A stretch of DNA of 34,023 bases from the IMG/VR virus record IMGVR_UViG_3300027733_000012, positions 1 to 34,023 of that record; one strand, 5' to 3'. The stretch's first letter is position 1. Every line of letters begins with the position of its first letter. Of the stretch, positions 11,793 to 34,023 are shown piece by piece. The notes under the pieces were generated by a model. That model was not told the DNA's origin. It was given only the letters and a program-made list of their open reading frames with translations, and did not search any database. This DNA comes from a virus. Made by a program: the position numbers and the translations under genes.

Positions 11793-14591
11793 ATGCAAGA
11801 TGTATTGAGCGCGTTCGCACAAGCAGCGGAGGCCGAGCGCGGTCTCCTATTCCCTGACGGCGTCATAGCCAATGGCGAGCACCACAGGGTGCCGACGGTG
11901 TCCAAGCCGGACAAGAAGAACGGCTGGTATGTGGTGCACCTCAACGACGGGCCGGGGCAGAGTGGTGTGGTGGTGGCAGTGTTCAATGACCTTGCAGCTG
12001 GGCAGCCGGATGTGAAGTGGTCGAGCACGGCGAACAAGAGGCCAGAGGTGAACCTCGAGGAGGCGACAGCGACGATGAAGAAGAAGATAGCAGCTGCTGC
12101 CAAGGTGAAGGTGGACAAGGCCGAGGCAGCGGTGAACGAGGTGACGGCCGAGATAGCGCGGTCAAAGCCAGTGCAAGAGGCATTCGGTTACCTCGAGCAC
12201 AAGGGCGTAAGGTCGGTGCCAGGACTGTACCGCAGTGGGCAGACGCTGGTGGTGCCGCTGAAGGACGATAAGCAGCGTGTGGTGAACATGCAGCGCATCT
12301 GGCAGGACAGCGACGGTGTGTGGCAGAAGCGGTACCAGAAGAACGCAACGCGGGTGGGGACCTACTTTGCCATCAAGGCGAGCCCCGACACGGTAGCGAT
12401 TTGCGAGGGCGTGGCGACCGGCATCAGTGTCCATGAGGCGACAGGGTGGACAGTGCTTGCAGCTGGGGACACGACGCAGCTGGTGGCGGTGGCTAAGATG
12501 GCTCGTCGGATGATGCCAGGCGCTCGCATCATCCTTTGTGCCGACGATGACCGCATGACGGAGGGCAACCCAGGAGTGACCAAGGCACGAGAGGCGGCCG
12601 AGGCGGTTCGTGGCGAGGTGCGGGTGCCGGTGTTTGACGACCTTGATAGCCGAGGGACCGACTACAACGACCTGCATCAAGAGCAGGGGTTGTCGGAGGT
12701 GAAGTTGCAGCTGGAGGCCAAGGTCGAGCCGGTGGACGATGTGCCGCTGCCAGAGGAGGCACCCTACTACGAGGAGAAGCTCGGCAAGGAGAAGCCAGCA
12801 GGTGAGGAGGCATGGGTGCCGGATGGGTACGAGTTCACTAACACCGGTGCAGTGATACGGTTGCCGCCTGCCGACAGCGAGAAGCCCCCGACGCTCGTGA
12901 GCTCACAGCCATTGTGGGTAGCAGGGGTGCGGGTGGACGCGGTCGATGGCACAAGGTCGATGCTGGTGAAGTGGTGCACACCTCGAGCAGGTGAGTTCGG
13001 CCGGTTCGATAGGCCGCACCAGGTCATCGTGGACCGAGGCACGCTGCTCAATGCCCGCAGCATCGTGGCTCTGGCAAGCGCAGGGTTCCCGGTAGACTCG
13101 ACATGTGCGAGCGAGGTGGTGCTGTACCTGCGCAAGAGTGAGTCGCAGTACCTCGCCACGACGGTGCGAGCGGCGCAAGAGATGGTGGCAAGCGTGACAG
13201 GCTGGCATGGGGCGCTCGATTGGACTGCCTCGAGCTTCTTGATAGGCGAGAAGCAGGCGGGTTTGGGTTGCCCGACGTTCGAGAACCTCAACCCTGAGCT
13301 GGCGCGGCATGTGGGCGCGTTCACGGTGAGTGGCGAGGCATCGAAGCAGCTGGTGGTGCTGCGAGACATCGTTGACCAGCACCCCGACATGGCGACGGTG
13401 GTTGCGGTAGCTTTGGCGTCACCTTTGATGCGGGTAGTGTCGGCACCGGTGTTTGTCCTCGACATCGCCTGCGAGAGTAGCCGAGGCAAGACCAAGGCGC
13501 TGCTGGTGGCTGCGTCGGTGTATGGCTCGCCACAGACGATGCGGTCATGGGACACAACGAAGTACGCGCTCGAGATAGTGGCGAATGCGCAGCGGGGGTT
13601 GCCGTTGTTGCTCGATGAGACGCAGCGAGCGAGCAAGCCAGAGATGGTGCAGCCGATGGTCTACGACCTGTGCAACGTCGAGGGCAAGATGCGAGGCAAG
13701 GCCGACGGTGGAGTGCGGGCTATCTCTCGGTACGAGTCGCTGGTCATCAGCACAGGTGAGCAGAGCATAGCAGCCTTTGGCGACGCAGGCGGTGCTAGGG
13801 CGCGAATCCTGACCATCCAAGGCAGCCCTTGGAACGTGGGTATGCCCAAGCCTACGCCAGAGGCCATCAGGGCCTTGACGGTGTACCAGAGCCAGAGCCT
13901 CGACACCTTGTCGGACCACTACGGGCACGCGGGCCGGATGTTTGCCGAGAAGGTGGCGGTGCTGACAGAGGACGAGAGGCGTGAGCTGCGAGCTCGTTAT
14001 CGTGAGCTGGTGCATGCTCGGTCGGTGTCGGTGGAGGAGCTCAGCCCCAGTCACCCGATTGGGTCTCGGCTGTCGACGTATGCTGCGCTGATTGACCTTG
14101 CCGGCGAGCTGGCCGAGCGTTGGCTCGAGATGAAGCCGGCGGCATGGCTGTCGAGGGAGCGATGGTCAGCGATGCTCGGTTGCGGCCGTCCTGCCGACGT
14201 GGCAACGCAGGCGATGGAGCGGCTGGTGGCATGGGGTTGGTCAAGGTCAGCGCAGCTGCACGGCCATGGTGATGCGACCAAGACGTTGGGGCGCGATGCC
14301 ATCGGGACCTTCTCGGTTGATGGGGTGACAGGCAGGCCCAAGTTGCAGTTTGTGATGGCAACGGCCAACGACATGCTGCGCTCGGCAGGGTACCAGCCGG
14401 GAGCAGTAGCAGCGACATGGGCCTCACGCGGTTGGCTCAATGGCGACAAGGGGTCAAATACCTCTAAAGTCGTTAGTGTGGCAGGGTTCAAGGTGCGCAT
14501 GTACGACTTGAGCACGGTAGCACACTCGCTGCATGTGTGGCCGAGCGAGGATGCGGCAGAGAACATCTTTGCCGGTGATGTTCCGTTCTGA
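11793..14591 (+). CDS. Primase-helicase: TOPRIM primase plus DUF927-type ATPase
   Basis: 932 residues from ATG 11793 (CGAGGT close upstream; an in-frame GTG at 11760 lies in a hairpin). Residues ~120-190 resemble the part preceding TOPRIM in phage/plasmid primases (FGYLEHKGVRSVPGLYRSG...LVVPL). TOPRIM spans ~200-300: AICEG with Glu205, then CADDD (Asp251-253) and GTDYNDLH. The second half is DUF927-like: residues 370-550, Walker A ESSRGKTK (561-568), Walker B LPLLLDE (603-609), sensor-like VISTGE (651-656) and an arginine-bearing GARARIL. It would unwind and prime the origin region next to it, with host polymerase extending. The protein ends ...FAGDVPF, like the SSB C-terminal tip that recruits host replication proteins. 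Confidence 0.82.
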   Translation: MQDVLSAFAQAAEAERGLLFPDGVIANGEHHRVPTVSKPDKKNGWYVVHLNDGPGQSGVVVAVFNDLAAGQPDVKWSSTANKRPEVNLEEATATMKKKIAAAAKVKVDKAEAAVNEVTAEIARSKPVQEAFGYLEHKGVRSVPGLYRSGQTLVVPLKDDKQRVVNMQRIWQDSDGVWQKRYQKNATRVGTYFAIKASPDTVAICEGVATGISVHEATGWTVLAAGDTTQLVAVAKMARRMMPGARIILCADDDRMTEGNPGVTKAREAAEAVRGEVRVPVFDDLDSRGTDYNDLHQEQGLSEVKLQLEAKVEPVDDVPLPEEAPYYEEKLGKEKPAGEEAWVPDGYEFTNTGAVIRLPPADSEKPPTLVSSQPLWVAGVRVDAVDGTRSMLVKWCTPRAGEFGRFDRPHQVIVDRGTLLNARSIVALASAGFPVDSTCASEVVLYLRKSESQYLATTVRAAQEMVASVTGWHGALDWTASSFLIGEKQAGLGCPTFENLNPELARHVGAFTVSGEASKQLVVLRDIVDQHPDMATVVAVALASPLMRVVSAPVFVLDIACESSRGKTKALLVAASVYGSPQTMRSWDTTKYALEIVANAQRGLPLLLDETQRASKPEMVQPMVYDLCNVEGKMRGKADGGVRAISRYESLVISTGEQSIAAFGDAGGARARILTIQGSPWNVGMPKPTPEAIRALTVYQSQSLDTLSDHYGHAGRMFAEKVAVLTEDERRELRARYRELVHARSVSVEELSPSHPIGSRLSTYAALIDLAGELAERWLEMKPAAWLSRERWSAMLGCGRPADVATQAMERLVAWGWSRSAQLHGHGDATKTLGRDAIGTFSVDGVTGRPKLQFVMATANDMLRSAGYQPGAVAATWASRGWLNGDKGSNTSKVVSVAGFKVRMYDLSTVAHSLHVWPSEDAAENIFAGDVPF

Positions 14592-14626
14592 GCAGAAATC
14601 GACATCGGGGGGCAGAAATCGACATC
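14592..14626. repeat. Two direct copies of a 15-bp sequence just after the primase stop
   Basis: GCAGAAATCGACATC occurs at 14592-14606 and 14612-14626, a 20-base period, starting right after the primase stop codon. It is followed by the partly complementary AACGATGTTGAC and by CAGGT-gaat-ACCTG (14641-14654), a perfect 5-bp hairpin. It may be a protein-binding site or part of a terminator/processing region. The following gene has its own leader. Confidence 0.55.
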
Positions 14627-14672
14627 AACGATGTTGACCGCAGGTGAATACCTGTTAGGACCTCTTCTCACA

Positions 14673-14722
14673 GGCAGCGACAACTGCCCGCCCTACATAG
14701 TCACCCCGCCCCGCTTAGGGGC
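14673..14722 (+). ncRNA. Two-hairpin leader element, copy 1
   Basis: Hairpin 1 is GGCAG-cgacaa-CTGCC (14673-14688). Hairpin 2 is GCCCC-GCTTA-GGGGC (14708-14722) and is followed by CAGGAGAGAAGCC and the ATG at 14741. Hairpin 2 is the same 15-mer, except one loop base, as at 16587-16601. The order (stem with an A-containing loop, spacer, GC-pure stem, ribosome site) is shared with the leaders before the genes at 16268 and 16621. Confidence 0.5.
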
Positions 14723-14740
14723 ACACCCAGGAGAGAAGCC

Positions 14741-15157
14741 ATGAGGCTTACCATCGAGAACGCGTCCGAGACCTTCCTCACCCTCGTCAACACCATCACC
14801 GGTACTGAGTTCACTCAGACCAAGACCTGCATCATCGGTGACACCCGGTGCCAGAGCATCAAGCGCCACGAGGGCACTGGCACGCTGGTCGACTATTCCT
14901 TCACGCTCGCCATCCTCGAGACGGGCCGTGATGCCTCTGGCGAGCAGCTGCACGACATGCGTGTGATTGCCAACCGCACGGTCAACCTGCCTTGGTCGCA
15001 GGGCAACCGCACGACCATCACGTCGGTGGCTATCTCTGACCAGTCGCCCATCGACCTCAACAACCTTGGCCTTGCCATCGAGCACTGCATCGACCGGCTG
15101 ACCGAGCAGGCTGAGGTTCTCTCGCAGCATGTGCGCAGCGAGGTGGCCTATGTCTAA
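14741..15157 (+). CDS. Unknown early protein upstream of the exonuclease
   Basis: 138 residues, ATG 14741 with AGGAGAG before it. It starts MRLTIENASETFLTLVNTITG and is a soluble mixed alpha/beta protein with a likely C-terminal helix (NNLGLAIEHCIDRLTEQAEVL). I recognise no motif. It overlaps the exonuclease start by eight bases, so the two are probably co-translated and functionally linked, perhaps as a recombination accessory or exonuclease partner. No annotation beyond that is supported. Confidence 0.75.
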   Translation: MRLTIENASETFLTLVNTITGTEFTQTKTCIIGDTRCQSIKRHEGTGTLVDYSFTLAILETGRDASGEQLHDMRVIANRTVNLPWSQGNRTTITSVAISDQSPIDLNNLGLAIEHCIDRLTEQAEVLSQHVRSEVAYV

Positions 15158-16199
15158 GGTCAACTACCCCAACGCAGTGCGAGAGATTCCCGTCCACGAG
15201 CACGGCAGCCGCGAGTGGCTCATCGAGCGTGCCAACACCCTCGGTGCATCTGAGCTGGGCAAGGCGCTCGGCGTGTCGCCCTACGGTGGCCTGCTGTCGC
15301 TGGTCATCGAGAAGCGCCAGTCGCGCGCCGGCAACCCCGATGTCATCACCTCTGATGCGATGCAGGATGGTCAGGATGCCGAAGACACGGTCCTGCGCAT
15401 GGCATGGCGTCGCCTTCAGCAGCTCGCAGGCGGTGCCTACTACAGCACGCCGCAGCCAGAAATGGTCAAGGGCACTGCCATCGCGCTCGGTGCCCTGTCT
15501 GCCACGCCTGATGCGCTCATCATCGACCAAGAGACGATGAATGCGGTTAGTCTTATCGAGGCAAAGCTCGACCGCTCGCGCAACACCGACTGGGCCGAGG
15601 TGCTCGAGAACGGCTTTGGTCACTTGAACGGGCAAGACCTCAGGTTGAACTACTGGTGGCAAGTCCAAAGTCAGCTGTATTGCTCGGGTCTTTCAGTAGG
15701 TTACCTCGCAGTTTGGACTGTGTTCAACTTCTATCTCATCGAGATTGAGGCAGACGAGGCCGCAGCCGAGGTGATTGCCCAGGTAGGCCCGACCGTGATG
15801 GCATGGGTTGTCGACTCGGCCGACCGTCTGCCTGCTCCGACTGATGCCGACGGGCTGCGCACCATCGCAAGCACGGTGCGTCCTGCCTCTGAGGGGCCGA
15901 TTGAGGTGGAGGGAGCAGTGGCCGAGGCCCTTGCTGCCTATGTCTCGCTGGGCAAGCAGATTGACGCCCTTGATGAGCAGCGCGACGCAGCCAAGCGCAT
16001 CATCCTCGAGGCGCACAATGCAGGTGCCAAGCTGGCCTCGGCCGACGGCATCAAGAGCAGCTTCATCGCAGCGTCGGAGCGTGTCAGCCTGGACACCAAG
16101 AAGCTCGAGAGTGACCACCCCGCGCTGGTGGCTGACTACCGCAAGGTGACGCAGGTGTCGGCCTCGTGCCGCGTGACTGCCCCGCGCAGCAAGGGCTAA
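15150..16199 (+). CDS. YqaJ-type viral recombinase / exonuclease
   Basis: 349 residues from ATG 15150 inside the end of the previous gene. The PD-(D/E)XK nuclease core is visible: SREWLIERANTLGASELGKALG (substrate-entry motif with the conserved Arg and T/G-A-S), QDGQDAED (Glu78 in the conserved G-x-x-x-E position), SATPDALI with Asp121, then LIEAK (Glu137, Lys139), and NYWWQVQSQLYCSGL, the Y-x-x-Q-x-Q motif of this family. Such enzymes degrade one strand of a duplex to give single-stranded DNA on which a RecT-type protein anneals; a RecT gene follows 1 kb downstream. The C-terminal third (AYVSLGKQIDALDEQRDAAKRII) is a coiled coil often attached to phage YqaJ proteins. Confidence 0.85.
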   Translation: MSKVNYPNAVREIPVHEHGSREWLIERANTLGASELGKALGVSPYGGLLSLVIEKRQSRAGNPDVITSDAMQDGQDAEDTVLRMAWRRLQQLAGGAYYSTPQPEMVKGTAIALGALSATPDALIIDQETMNAVSLIEAKLDRSRNTDWAEVLENGFGHLNGQDLRLNYWWQVQSQLYCSGLSVGYLAVWTVFNFYLIEIEADEAAAEVIAQVGPTVMAWVVDSADRLPAPTDADGLRTIASTVRPASEGPIEVEGAVAEALAAYVSLGKQIDALDEQRDAAKRIILEAHNAGAKLASADGIKSSFIAASERVSLDTKKLESDHPALVADYRKVTQVSASCRVTAPRSKG

Positions 16200-16203
16200 G
16201 CCC

Positions 16204-16249
16204 AGTGGCAGGTGCAACCCCTGCCATGCTGCCTGCCCGATGTTGGGCA
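16204..16249 (+). ncRNA. Two-hairpin leader element, copy 2
   Basis: Hairpin 1 is GGCAGG-TGCAACC-CCTGCC (16207-16225), extended outward by a T-A pair and a G-U pair. The linker ATGCTGCC follows, then hairpin 2 TGCCC-GATGTT-GGGCA (16234-16249), then AAGGAGAGAGAG and the ATG at 16268. Compared with copy 3, the stem pairs change together while the loop start (TGCAA) and linker (TGCTGCCT) stay the same, which points to a selected RNA structure. Confidence 0.55.
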
Positions 16250-16267
16250 AGCCAAGGAGAGAGAGCC

Positions 16268-16546
16268 ATGAGCAAGAAGCTGAAGAGAGAGATAGTGATG
16301 ATGGCTGTGCAGCGTCGTGTGTTGCCGCTCAAGGACGAGACAGCGGTGCAGCACGCGGTGCGAGCCTACAAGATTGCGCAGGACTGCATGGCTGCGCTCG
16401 AGGACAAGGTGGAGGCCGAGCCCGCGCCTGCCGCACCTGCCGAGGTGTCAGACTGGACCGTGAAGCTGGCCGGCGCTGACCTCATCAAGATGTGGACCCC
16501 GACAGGCAACCGTTGGGTGACCATCAGCAAGCAGCTCAAGGACTAA
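16268..16546 (+). CDS. Unknown small early protein
   Basis: 92 residues; ATG 16268 is chosen for the AAGGAG upstream. The frame is open before it, but that stretch is the structured leader. It begins MSKKLKREIVMMAVQRRV (basic), has a helix (AVQHAVRAYKIAQDCMAALEDK), a Glu/Ala/Pro hinge, and a compact C-terminal part with WTVKLAGADLIKMW. No family is recognised. It lies between the exonuclease and RecT, so a role with recombination or early takeover is possible. Confidence 0.7.
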   Translation: MSKKLKREIVMMAVQRRVLPLKDETAVQHAVRAYKIAQDCMAALEDKVEAEPAPAAPAEVSDWTVKLAGADLIKMWTPTGNRWVTISKQLKD

Positions 16547-16552
16547 GCCTGC

Positions 16553-16601
16553 TGCCGGGTGCAAGCCCCGGCGTGCTGCCTCACCCGCCCCGATTAGGGG
16601 C
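16553..16601 (+). ncRNA. Two-hairpin leader element, copy 3
   Basis: Hairpin 1 is GCCGGG-TGCAAGC-CCCGGC (16554-16572). The linker GTGCTGCCTCACC follows, then hairpin 2 GCCCC-GATTA-GGGGC (16587-16601), then AAGGAGG and the ATG at 16621. Against copy 2, hairpin 1 shows two double compensatory changes (G-C to C-G and A-T to G-C) with the 7-base loop kept as TGCAA(C/G)C. Confidence 0.55.
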
Positions 16602-16620
16602 ATTTGAGAAGGAGGATGAG

Positions 16621-17220
16621 ATGAGTAACCAGATGCGACTGATTGACCTGACAGATGAGACGACGGCCGAGTGGCGCGAGCGCATCGAGCACAAGCTCGA
16701 CAGCATGAACCGCAAGATTGACGCGCTCCTGGCTGCCAAGACCGACGACCAGCCTGCCCTGCTTGCCATGGTTGCAGCTGGCCCTGCGCTGGTGGTGCCC
16801 AACGAGGATGAGGCTATGCCTGTCCTGGCATCCTGCCCCACCTGCAACACCAAGGCTTACACCGAGGCTGGCATCGCAGACTTCTTTGGCTGGCGCACGC
16901 CTGCCGGCCGTGAGACCATCGTGCAGTCCTGGTGCCGGGAGTGCCGTGCCCTCGAGCAGGCCACGAGCCCGCGCAAGAAGCAACGCCTGCCCGATGATGT
17001 GCGTGAGCTCGGCATCCAAGCGCGTGACCTTCACAAGCTGGCCGACGCCAAAGCCGAGGAGCGTGCCAAGGTGCTCGCAGGCAGCAAGGGCCGTGAGACC
17101 AAGGAGAGCGTTGTGCTCTTGGTCGAAGAGCAGGACCTGCGCACCGAGGCAGTTCGTCTGCTGTCTGAGTACGACCAGAAGCGCGGTATCCTCCGCAAGG
17201 CCAAGAAGGCCACCAACTAA
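16621..17220 (+). CDS. Zinc-ribbon-like unknown early protein
   Basis: 199 residues; ATG 16621 has a perfect AAGGAGG five bases upstream. An N-terminal coiled coil (EWRERIEHKLDSMNRKIDALLAAK) is followed by a four-cysteine site: CPTC at about residues 72-75 and CREC at about 108-111, with FFGW and WCREC between. This spacing and the F-x-x-W...S-W-C-R-x-C-R pattern resemble small zinc ribbons of phage DNA-associated proteins. The C-terminal half is a charged helix, rich in Lys/Arg/Glu. It probably binds nucleic acid, perhaps aiding the exonuclease/RecT pair around it. Function is unproven; no HNH catalytic histidine pair was seen. Confidence 0.7.
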   Translation: MSNQMRLIDLTDETTAEWRERIEHKLDSMNRKIDALLAAKTDDQPALLAMVAAGPALVVPNEDEAMPVLASCPTCNTKAYTEAGIADFFGWRTPAGRETIVQSWCRECRALEQATSPRKKQRLPDDVRELGIQARDLHKLADAKAEERAKVLAGSKGRETKESVVLLVEEQDLRTEAVRLLSEYDQKRGILRKAKKATN

Positions 17221-17223
17221 CCT

Positions 17224-17234
17224 CCCCCCCCCCC
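17224..17234 (+). repeat. Run of eleven C bases in the RecT leader
   Basis: A homopolymer C11 directly follows the previous stop, with GCAAGAGAGAGAG and the RecT ATG after it. It occupies the place where the two preceding genes have hairpin 2. Its length may vary between virions or be miscounted by sequencing. It is outside coding sequence, so any slippage would change leader length and not frame. Confidence 0.85.
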
Positions 17235-17252
17235 GCAAGAGAGAGAGACCCC

Positions 17253-18098
17253 ATGAGCATGCAGATTGCCAAGAACCAACACCCCGTCGAGGGCTGGCTG
17301 TCTAACCCAGACAACTTTGCCAAGGTCGCCAACGCGCTGCCGACGCACCTCAATGCCGAGCGCATGCGCCGGCTCTACCTCACCGTGTTCAACAACAGCC
17401 CGGCACTCAAGGCGTGCAGCCCTGCCTCCGTCATCGGCTGCCTGCTCAAGTCTGCCCAGCTCGGCCTCGAGCCGGATGGTGGCAAGCTCTACCTTATCCC
17501 GCGTGGTGGCGAGTGCACGGTGCAGATTGGCTTTCAGGGCTACATCGAGCTCGCCCGCCGCTCTGGTCAGATTGCCGCCATCGAGGCCAACATCGTCTAC
17601 GAGACAGACGACTTCTCGATTGCCTACCATCTCGACAGCAAGTTTGAGCATCGGCCCAACCTGCGTCGTGCAGCCGACGACAAGGTGCTCGGCGTGTATT
17701 GCTATGCCAAGCTGACCTCTGGCGAGCGGCTGTTCACATGGATGAGCCACGCCGATGTCGAGCATGTGCGTCGCACGAGTTCTGGCAACAGCAGCACCTG
17801 GACCAAGCACTGGGGCGAGATGGCGAAAAAGACGGTGCTCAAGCGTGCCGCCAAGATGCTGCCCAGCTCGATTGAGATGGCTGCTGCTATCGAGACCGAG
17901 GCCGAGCACGAGGGCTACCAGCAGGAGGCGCCTGTGGTGTCTCATCAGGTGGTGACGACTCCGACGGCAGTAGGTGGTGCCCGGCTGCCTGCTCCTCCGC
18001 CGCCCATCGAGGTGACGGCCGAGGAGGTCGAGGTCACTGAGCTGGCTGCAACCGAGGCTGCTACCGAGCCCCTCAACCTCGACGAGGTGCCGTTTTGA
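17253..18098 (+). CDS. recT: RecT-family single-strand annealing protein
   Basis: 281 residues from ATG 17253 (purine-rich GAGAGAGAG upstream). The RecT core is clear: PASVIGCLLKSAQLGLEPDGGKLYLIPRGGE (about residues 58-90), then VQIGFQGYIELARRSGQI, and later KTVLKRAAKMLP. It coats and anneals single strands produced by the upstream exonuclease, giving a two-component Red/RecET-like recombination system. After about residue 215 the protein becomes a Pro/Glu/Val/Ala-rich disordered tail ending NLDEVPF, resembling the acidic DDDIPF tip of bacterial SSB. That tail could recruit host SSB-interacting proteins. The following gene starts within its stop codon (TTGA). Confidence 0.88.
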   Translation: MSMQIAKNQHPVEGWLSNPDNFAKVANALPTHLNAERMRRLYLTVFNNSPALKACSPASVIGCLLKSAQLGLEPDGGKLYLIPRGGECTVQIGFQGYIELARRSGQIAAIEANIVYETDDFSIAYHLDSKFEHRPNLRRAADDKVLGVYCYAKLTSGERLFTWMSHADVEHVRRTSSGNSSTWTKHWGEMAKKTVLKRAAKMLPSSIEMAAAIETEAEHEGYQQEAPVVSHQVVTTPTAVGGARLPAPPPPIEVTAEEVEVTELAATEAATEPLNLDEVPF

Positions 18099-33750: not shown

Positions 33751-34023
33751 TTACGGCGCGTTAAAACTAATCGAACCAATGTCAGACACGCTGTTGGCGT
33801 TGACGATGCCTGCGAACTTGAGACCGATGTTGCGGTAGCCGTTGCTCTCGCCCGGTGTCGGCCACTGAATCAGCTGCGGCTCGTTGAGGCTAAACACCAC
33901 CGAGGTGGAGCCAGCAATCGCCACCGTCACGGTGAGCGCAGTCGAATCGACCGTGTTGTCCTGTGCCTCGGTCCAGTCAGGCTGCGTGGTCTCAGCCAGG
34001 TCGGCAACCTCAATCTCAATCGA
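33751..34023 (-). CDS. Major tail (tube) protein, C-terminal part (joins 1-904)
   Basis: This is the other piece of the gene split by the contig ends. From the junction at 33897 it adds 48 residues, ending ...GSISFNAP and TAA at 33751; 33897-34023 duplicate the opening 127 bases. The final segment (GLKFAGIVNANSVSDIG) looks like strands closing a tail-tube domain. The tail chaperone ATG at 33731 lies 19 bases downstream in transcription. Confidence 0.75.
   Translation of the reverse strand, partial: SIEIEVADLAETTQPDWTEAQDNTVDSTALTVTVAIAGSTSVVFSLNEPQLIQWPTPGESNGYRNIGLKFAGIVNANSVSDIGSISFNAP
33897..34023. repeat. Terminal overlap, copy 2 (same as 1-127)
   Basis: The exact repeat of the first 127 bases. 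It should be removed once when the circle is built. See the entry at position 1. Confidence 0.93.

Follow-up and report, generated by a model that had tools for sequence, protein, structure and literature searches.

Background

Bacterial single-stranded DNA-binding protein (SSB) carries at its C-terminus (SSB-Ct; in E. coli ...DFDDDIPF) a terminal Phe, a penultimate Pro and acidic residues upstream. The sites that bind the E. coli SSB-Ct are described as receiving the terminal Phe in a hydrophobic pocket, its carboxylate at a basic lip and the Asp residues along a basic ridge, and loss of the Phe or a change of the Pro as abolishing or weakening the binding (PMC10164576). C-terminal tails also serve two replication proteins of phage T7, where those of the helicase-primase gp4 are described as touching the T7 polymerase and that of gp2.5 is implicated in polymerase and primase-helicase contacts (PMC8472574, PMC5686142). 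The NDYPPF end of the phage HK620 SSB is reported to be required for most of the stimulation of the Sak4 annealase (PMC5928155), and the C-terminal domain of the lambda annealase Redβ to bind E. coli SSB (PMC8303780). Here we describe a virus record of 34,023 nucleotides (IMG/VR IMGVR_UViG_3300027733_000012; analysed at its full length and termed the window below) in which a primase-helicase and the single-strand annealing protein RecT both end in an SSB-like tip.

The window primase ends in AENIFAGDVPF and RecT in EPLNLDEVPF, with a TGA stop directly after each. Like the bacterial SSB-Ct, both proteins have a C-terminal Phe and a penultimate Pro (VPF ends) with acidic residues upstream, and the linker of RecT looks disordered; unlike in bacteria, the carriers are a primase-helicase and an annealase rather than an SSB of the oligonucleotide/oligosaccharide-binding (OB) fold, neither matches PF00436, the OB-fold SSB domain, and the acidic residues are fewer, fewest in the primase. 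The likeness to T7, compared here by its described contacts, lies in C-terminal tails as putative contacts on two replication proteins of one phage; however, the T7 tails contact the phage's own polymerase and helicase-primase, whereas in the window no phage polymerase is recognisable, one carrier is an annealase and the end is of the host-like PF form. As in HK620, an SSB-like tip is tied to phage single-strand annealing, and that case shows such ends at work during phage recombination, though with the roles swapped: in HK620 the phage SSB carries the tip, which the annealase needs in order to act on that SSB, whereas here the annealase itself bears the tip. The window RecT also belongs with Redβ to a group of annealases linked to host SSB biology, but where the C-terminal domain of Redβ binds SSB, the window RecT appears to imitate it. 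The tip itself is already known; what is new is its presence on non-SSB phage enzymes, two of them in one genome, and in the titles and abstract openings covered by our literature search (most subscription papers lie outside it) we found no SSB-like tip on a phage RecT or DUF927 primase.

Results and discussion

Two SSB-like C-terminal tips in one genome

The primase-helicase (932 residues; 11793 to 14591, + strand; stop at 14589 to 14591) contains Toprim_3 and DUF927 domains (Pfam PF13362, E 5.5e-11, and PF06048, E 3.9e-30, both above cut-off) together with a weak HTH_56 match under its cut-off (PF18662, E 0.0033), and is assigned among PHROGs to a DNA primase/helicase family (phrog_8841, E 1.3e-64). 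Its tip, Gly-Asp-Val-Pro-Phe, lies at 14574 to 14588 on the + strand and abuts the TGA stop. RecT (281 residues; 17253 to 18098, + strand; stop at 18096 to 18098; PF03837, E 2.2e-49; phrog_148, E 1.2e-75) has an annealase core at residues 37-223, as delimited by the PF03837 match, then an acidic linker rich in Pro, Ala, Glu and Thr (residues 212-276; 17886 to 18080, + strand), recognised by its charge and codon changes, and finally the tip Asp-Glu-Val-Pro-Phe (18081 to 18095, + strand), which likewise abuts its TGA. The net charge of RecT residues 212-281 is -13 and that of the core +6. The last 20 residues of the primase have a charge of -4, and residues 877-932 fall under 50 in predicted local distance difference test (pLDDT), in a structural model that is poor as a whole (predicted template modelling score 0.35). 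The original prediction, made from the letters alone, held that the primase ends in FAGDVPF and RecT in NLDEVPF after an acidic tail; the ends as read directly and the RecT tail charge agree with it. Its further claim of a common D-x-V-P-F-like form stands for both ends as regards Pro and Phe and less well as regards acidity: RecT has two acidic residues directly ahead of its hydrophobic end (LDEVPF), but the primase has one in its last five residues (GDVPF), which leaves its tip less acidic than the DDDIPF of E. coli.

The pattern GANNTNCCNTTYTRA ([DE]-hydrophobic-Pro-Phe-stop) has two matches on the two strands of the window, at 14577 to 14591 and 18084 to 18098, and both are gene ends; 100 dinucleotide shuffles gave a mean of 0.02 matches, and none reached two. 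At the protein level, the chance of at least two tip ends among 41 genes is about 1%, calculated against a background of 12 tip proteins (the window group and SSBs left out) among about 3,400; this estimate is rough because the background consists of the gene neighbourhoods of RecT and primase and of mechanically called open reading frames (ORFs). No PF end was found among the 38 other C-termini of the 41 hand-listed window genes, the gene split by the window ends being left out. That two such ends in one phage are unlikely by chance, as had been claimed, is borne out by the excess over the shuffles and by the conservation within the close clade described next.

The tips are conserved among close relatives

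The close clade consists of the window and six IMG/VR records (L001 to L006), with RecTs 90-97% identical. DEVPF ends RecT in all seven records, and DVPF ends the primase in all six that contain the primase 3' end (the window and L002 to L006; L001 is a record without primase and is outside this count). The primases of the clade are 76-92% identical over the compared stretches, and the two residues preceding DVPF vary by lineage (AG, GG, GD, GP, DP). The primase of L006/L106 has a reading frame broken mid-gene, which may reflect either a sequencing error or a disrupted gene, and retains the DVPF 3' end.

At the codon level, the Asp and Val codons of the primase tip have undergone synonymous changes within the clade, as has the RecT Asp codon in two records. 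Codons 211-275, the linker of RecT, differ by 9-11 non-synonymous changes from three relatives and by 2 from the closest, such changes being relatively more frequent than in the core, and the last six codons show none across the close-clade comparisons; so few codons are involved that the tip contrast is no strong test alone. The acidic tails could instead act in cis, competing with DNA for the DNA-binding surface of their own protein and thereby tuning single-stranded DNA binding or annealing with no partner. The charge of the RecT tail would suit such a role, and an Enc34 phage SSB without its acidic tail is reported to gain double-stranded DNA binding (PMC5686142), but a charge effect needs no fixed Pro-Phe, the linker varies in the clade while D-x-P-F is constant, and the primase tip is hardly acidic; we therefore regard a purely cis-acting role as distinctly unlikely. 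The synonymous changes in the primase Asp and Val codons also speak against a constraint on the DNA itself, by which the end codons would be kept for translation or regulation. Such a constraint could draw on a TTG start at 18095, by which the next gene overlaps the RecT stop, and on a 13-bp repeat, AGAAATCGACATC, at 14594 and 14614 past the primase stop; yet the overlap constrains nothing beyond the stop and the third position of the Phe codon, and the two ends differ in codons (GTTCCGTTC, GTGCCGTTT) and in context, so that we consider it very improbable.

Distant relatives

The sister group (L027, L028, L029 and L109) has RecTs 45-47% identical by blast (L027 to L029) and primases 29-31% identical to those of the window. 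Two of the three sister records with a primase end terminate in YPDDPF and the third (L029) in SEPWD, and the RecTs end in EDDGFPL in all four. In a further relative, L107, the primase ends in DSEIP (about 10742) and RecT in GEFPWA (about 14806), both of which resemble near misses of the tip, again on the primase and on RecT. We also collected RecT tails from the best 80 of 591 relatives and from records fetched earlier (104 RecT ORFs): 66 of the 70 distinct tails have no PF end, and the four that have one all belong to the window clade, which rules out the tip as a general property of RecT. Judged from the distribution of these tails in distant relatives, the canonical end is a property of the clade on RecT and somewhat older, or repeated, on the primase. 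An alignment of homologous C-termini is thus favourable within the close clade, which keeps the end on both proteins, and unfavourable beyond it, where homologues depart from the form.

The restricted distribution would suit a coincidence or relic, in which both ends became PF a single time, in the common ancestor of a small clade, and persist because that clade is young. Both tips occur in this one clade, distant relatives vary, and the protein-level estimate of about 1% leaves some room for such an event. Against it stand the DNA-level expectation of 0.02, the retention of DVPF in primases as low as 78% in identity whose two preceding residues differ per lineage, the DDPF ends of two sister primases, and the excess of the tip in the whole collection reported below; we judge this explanation improbable.

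Non-SSB carriers of the tip in other phages

Of 3,421 distinct proteins predicted at 235 loci, 32 end in PF where 6.5 would be expected; by count no other P-X or X-F ending has so large an excess, and 29 of the 32 have an acidic residue at most three positions ahead of the Pro. These 29 include eight from the window clade, two sister primases and seven SSBs (five by Pfam, one annotated as single-stranded DNA-binding, and L214 from its sequence alone), single members of phrog_378 (an SSB family) and of DUF1654, one protein without known function, and two Toprim primases in bacterial genomes (L221, scanned, and L222, assigned by similarity). The remaining seven form a family of cysteine-containing proteins of 66-67 residues. 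This small family ends in W-D-x-[IV]-P-F and lies at about 1,000-2,100 on the - strand of L110, L111, L137, L148, L149, L152 and L154, phages with related Toprim primases; two of the three members scanned match phrog_23504, to which no function is assigned.

A scan of IMG/VR for D-[DE]-hydrophobic-P-F-TGA returned at least 120 stretches, and a control in which F and P were swapped gave 30 in total; an ORF of at least 60 residues ends at 114 of the 120 tip stretches among the matches listed, versus 6 of the 30 controls. The tip is strongly over-represented in IMG/VR, mostly on SSBs. Among the 114 matches listed, in which one protein may match several families so that counts overlap, we found 27 phrog_44 SSBs, 26 Pfam SSBs, four gp2.5-like SSBs and four DUF669 SSBs, together with three ResIII helicases, two Cas4-domain exonucleases, one ERF, one RecT and many proteins of no known family. 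The non-SSB carriers comprise an ERF (L285), a SAP-RecT (L322), Cas4-like exonucleases (L268, L273) and ResIII-type helicases; the helicase of a cultured phage, Roseobacter phage CRP-901, ends in ...FEEIPF. Six further cultured relatives of the tip proteins lack it, namely the helicase and Cas4 nuclease of Pseudoalteromonas phage H40/1, the Escherichia phage Halfdan helicase, the Cas4-like gp17 of CRP-901, and the ERFs of Octadecabacter DB virus 2 and Pkon1. The same tag is therefore carried by unrelated phage DNA-handling proteins that are not SSBs and end, like the window pair, in D/E-x-P-F. These other carriers differ from the window pair in protein family, and two matches of the DNA pattern per record were found in the window clade only (19 records searched).

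It is possible, though in our view doubtful, that several phage lineages, each independently, have equipped primase-helicases, annealases, exonucleases and helicases of their own with the SSB docking tip, as a distributed SSB tag. Each enzyme would then directly show the host recruitment signal, and phage DNA would be handled like an SSB-coated fork or break, with no need for host SSB in between; in the window clade the tip would sit on one fork protein and one recombination protein.

SSB, DNA polymerase and host

No PF00436 SSB was found at E <= 1 in 10 records of the window and its relatives, the same scan being positive in 12 of 14 control genomes, and among 40 of the 41 window genes scanned against PHROGs (E <= 0.01) none was recognised as an SSB or as a DNA polymerase, a divergent polymerase being possible. 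In a second set of 13 records, PF00436 occurs in two bacterial genomes and in none of 11 viral records, seven of which have the tip on an ERF, RecT, Cas4-like exonuclease or ResIII helicase (the ResIII helicases were assigned by an RPYQ start and by family counts, and several records are short fragments). The original prediction also pointed to the lack of an SSB in this genome: none is recognisable, but its absence is not explanatory alone, given that 25 of 30 tip-less RecT phage records are likewise without PF00436 and five have one. A missing SSB is a common state among RecT phages and therefore does not single out the tip, and we reject it as a sufficient cause. As for the host, a wider search of genome_contigs with the primase returned remote primases only, and the nearest phage matches of the terminase are to a Tunturiibacter phage and a Thermus phage, at about 31%.

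Possible docking of host SSB-interacting proteins

Both phage ends have the Phe and the Pro, the residues that count most in SSB-Ct recognition (PMC10164576), and RecT in addition has Asp-Glu ahead of the Val. We consider docking of host SSB readers the most likely reading: both tails may be SSB C-terminal mimics that dock host SSB-interacting proteins, a proposal built on sequence which we hold with evenly balanced confidence. The primase and RecT would each terminate a presumably flexible tail with such a mimic. In those host proteins the SSB-Ct pocket would accommodate the terminal Phe and its carboxylate together with the Pro and the acidic residues close by. Candidate host partners, taken partly from the papers cited and partly from general background, are Pol III chi, PriA, DnaG, RecO, RecG, RecQ and ExoI. 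As the phage has no recognisable SSB or DNA polymerase of its own, the tag, carried by its fork and recombination enzymes, would draw to its DNA the host proteins for replication restart and repair, with no bridging by host SSB, and may so affect phage replication.

Several observations weigh against this docking of host proteins. The primase tip is acidic only to a weak degree. The clade sample is small (7 records), its RecTs are close to one another (90-97% identity), and the codon contrast at the last residues has little power taken alone. The canonical end is absent from the sister RecTs (DDGFPL), from the L029 primase (SEPWD) and from L107 (DSEIP, EFPWA), and among the 70 distinct RecT tails collected no lineage besides the window clade has the PF end. 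Most tip-less RecT phages lack a recognisable SSB just as the window does, and a search of genome_contigs with the primase, confined to close relatives, gave no match.

The main rival is a docking internal to the phage, as in T7, in which the tips bind the YqaJ exonuclease, the 138-residue protein encoded beside the primase, or an SSB-binding face of RecT itself, and the primase tip would deliver either RecT or the exonuclease to the replication fork of the phage. Besides the T7 contacts and the binding of E. coli SSB by Redβ described above, RecT proteins are described as recognising the final seven residues of SSB (PMC10711431), so the primase tip might recruit RecT; the genes for primase, nuclease and RecT are also grouped in a single stretch of the same strand. 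However, the PF end has the host SSB form, no DNA polymerase is recognisable in the window genome, the window RecT appears from its sequence to be a core with an acidic linker and no evident folded C-terminal domain, and different protein families bear the tips in other phage lineages. We regard phage-internal docking as unlikely, though a serious competitor.

If the tips do bind host SSB partners, an end of four to six residues would explain how a small phage with no recognisable polymerase or SSB recruits host replication and repair proteins. It would also offer a compact handle for the transfer of RecT recombineering proteins from one host to another, for which SSB-tip compatibility is said to be limiting (PMC10711431). 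D/E-x-P-F-stop is, in addition, a simple text signature with which DNA-metabolism proteins may be spotted among unannotated phage genes.

Genome and gene context

The 34,023-base record is bounded by a 127-base direct terminal repeat (1 to 127 and 33897 to 34023), which suggests that it is a complete genome; scans of the window for Rfam families and tRNAs gave no match. The + strand block runs from the primase-helicase through the 138-residue protein, the exonuclease and two small genes to RecT, followed later by a Holliday junction resolvase-like gene. The exonuclease (15150 to 16199, + strand) is of the YqaJ/RecE-like type (PF09588, E 8.4e-8; phrog_434, E 1.2e-34), the expected partner of RecT. 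A long run of C at 17224 to 17235 lies directly 5' of recT. The 13-bp repeat past the primase stop is a tandem of two copies of AGAAATCGACATC (14594 to 14606 and 14614 to 14626), the only two in the window; a similar sequence follows the primase stop in close relatives and sister records, and it is possibly a regulatory site.

The interval between the primase and the exonuclease encodes the conserved protein of 138 residues (14741 to 15157, + strand), whose C-terminal end is not PF. Pfam and PHROG scans gave no match to it, and it is 57-80% identical in five relatives. Its structural model is of low confidence (pLDDT 69.4; the other four models 47-51) and shows a helix, strands and a long helix; the best PDB matches are actin capping protein subunits (Z about 10) and DR_1245 (Z 8.5), a likeness that may reflect a mere common arrangement. 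We considered whether it is an OB-fold SSB, which is not supported, the model being unreliable and no OB-fold chains occurring among the matches listed; it is possibly an unrecognised DNA-binding protein. In the sister group, a short ORF occupies the equivalent slot, at about 5953-6306 in L029.

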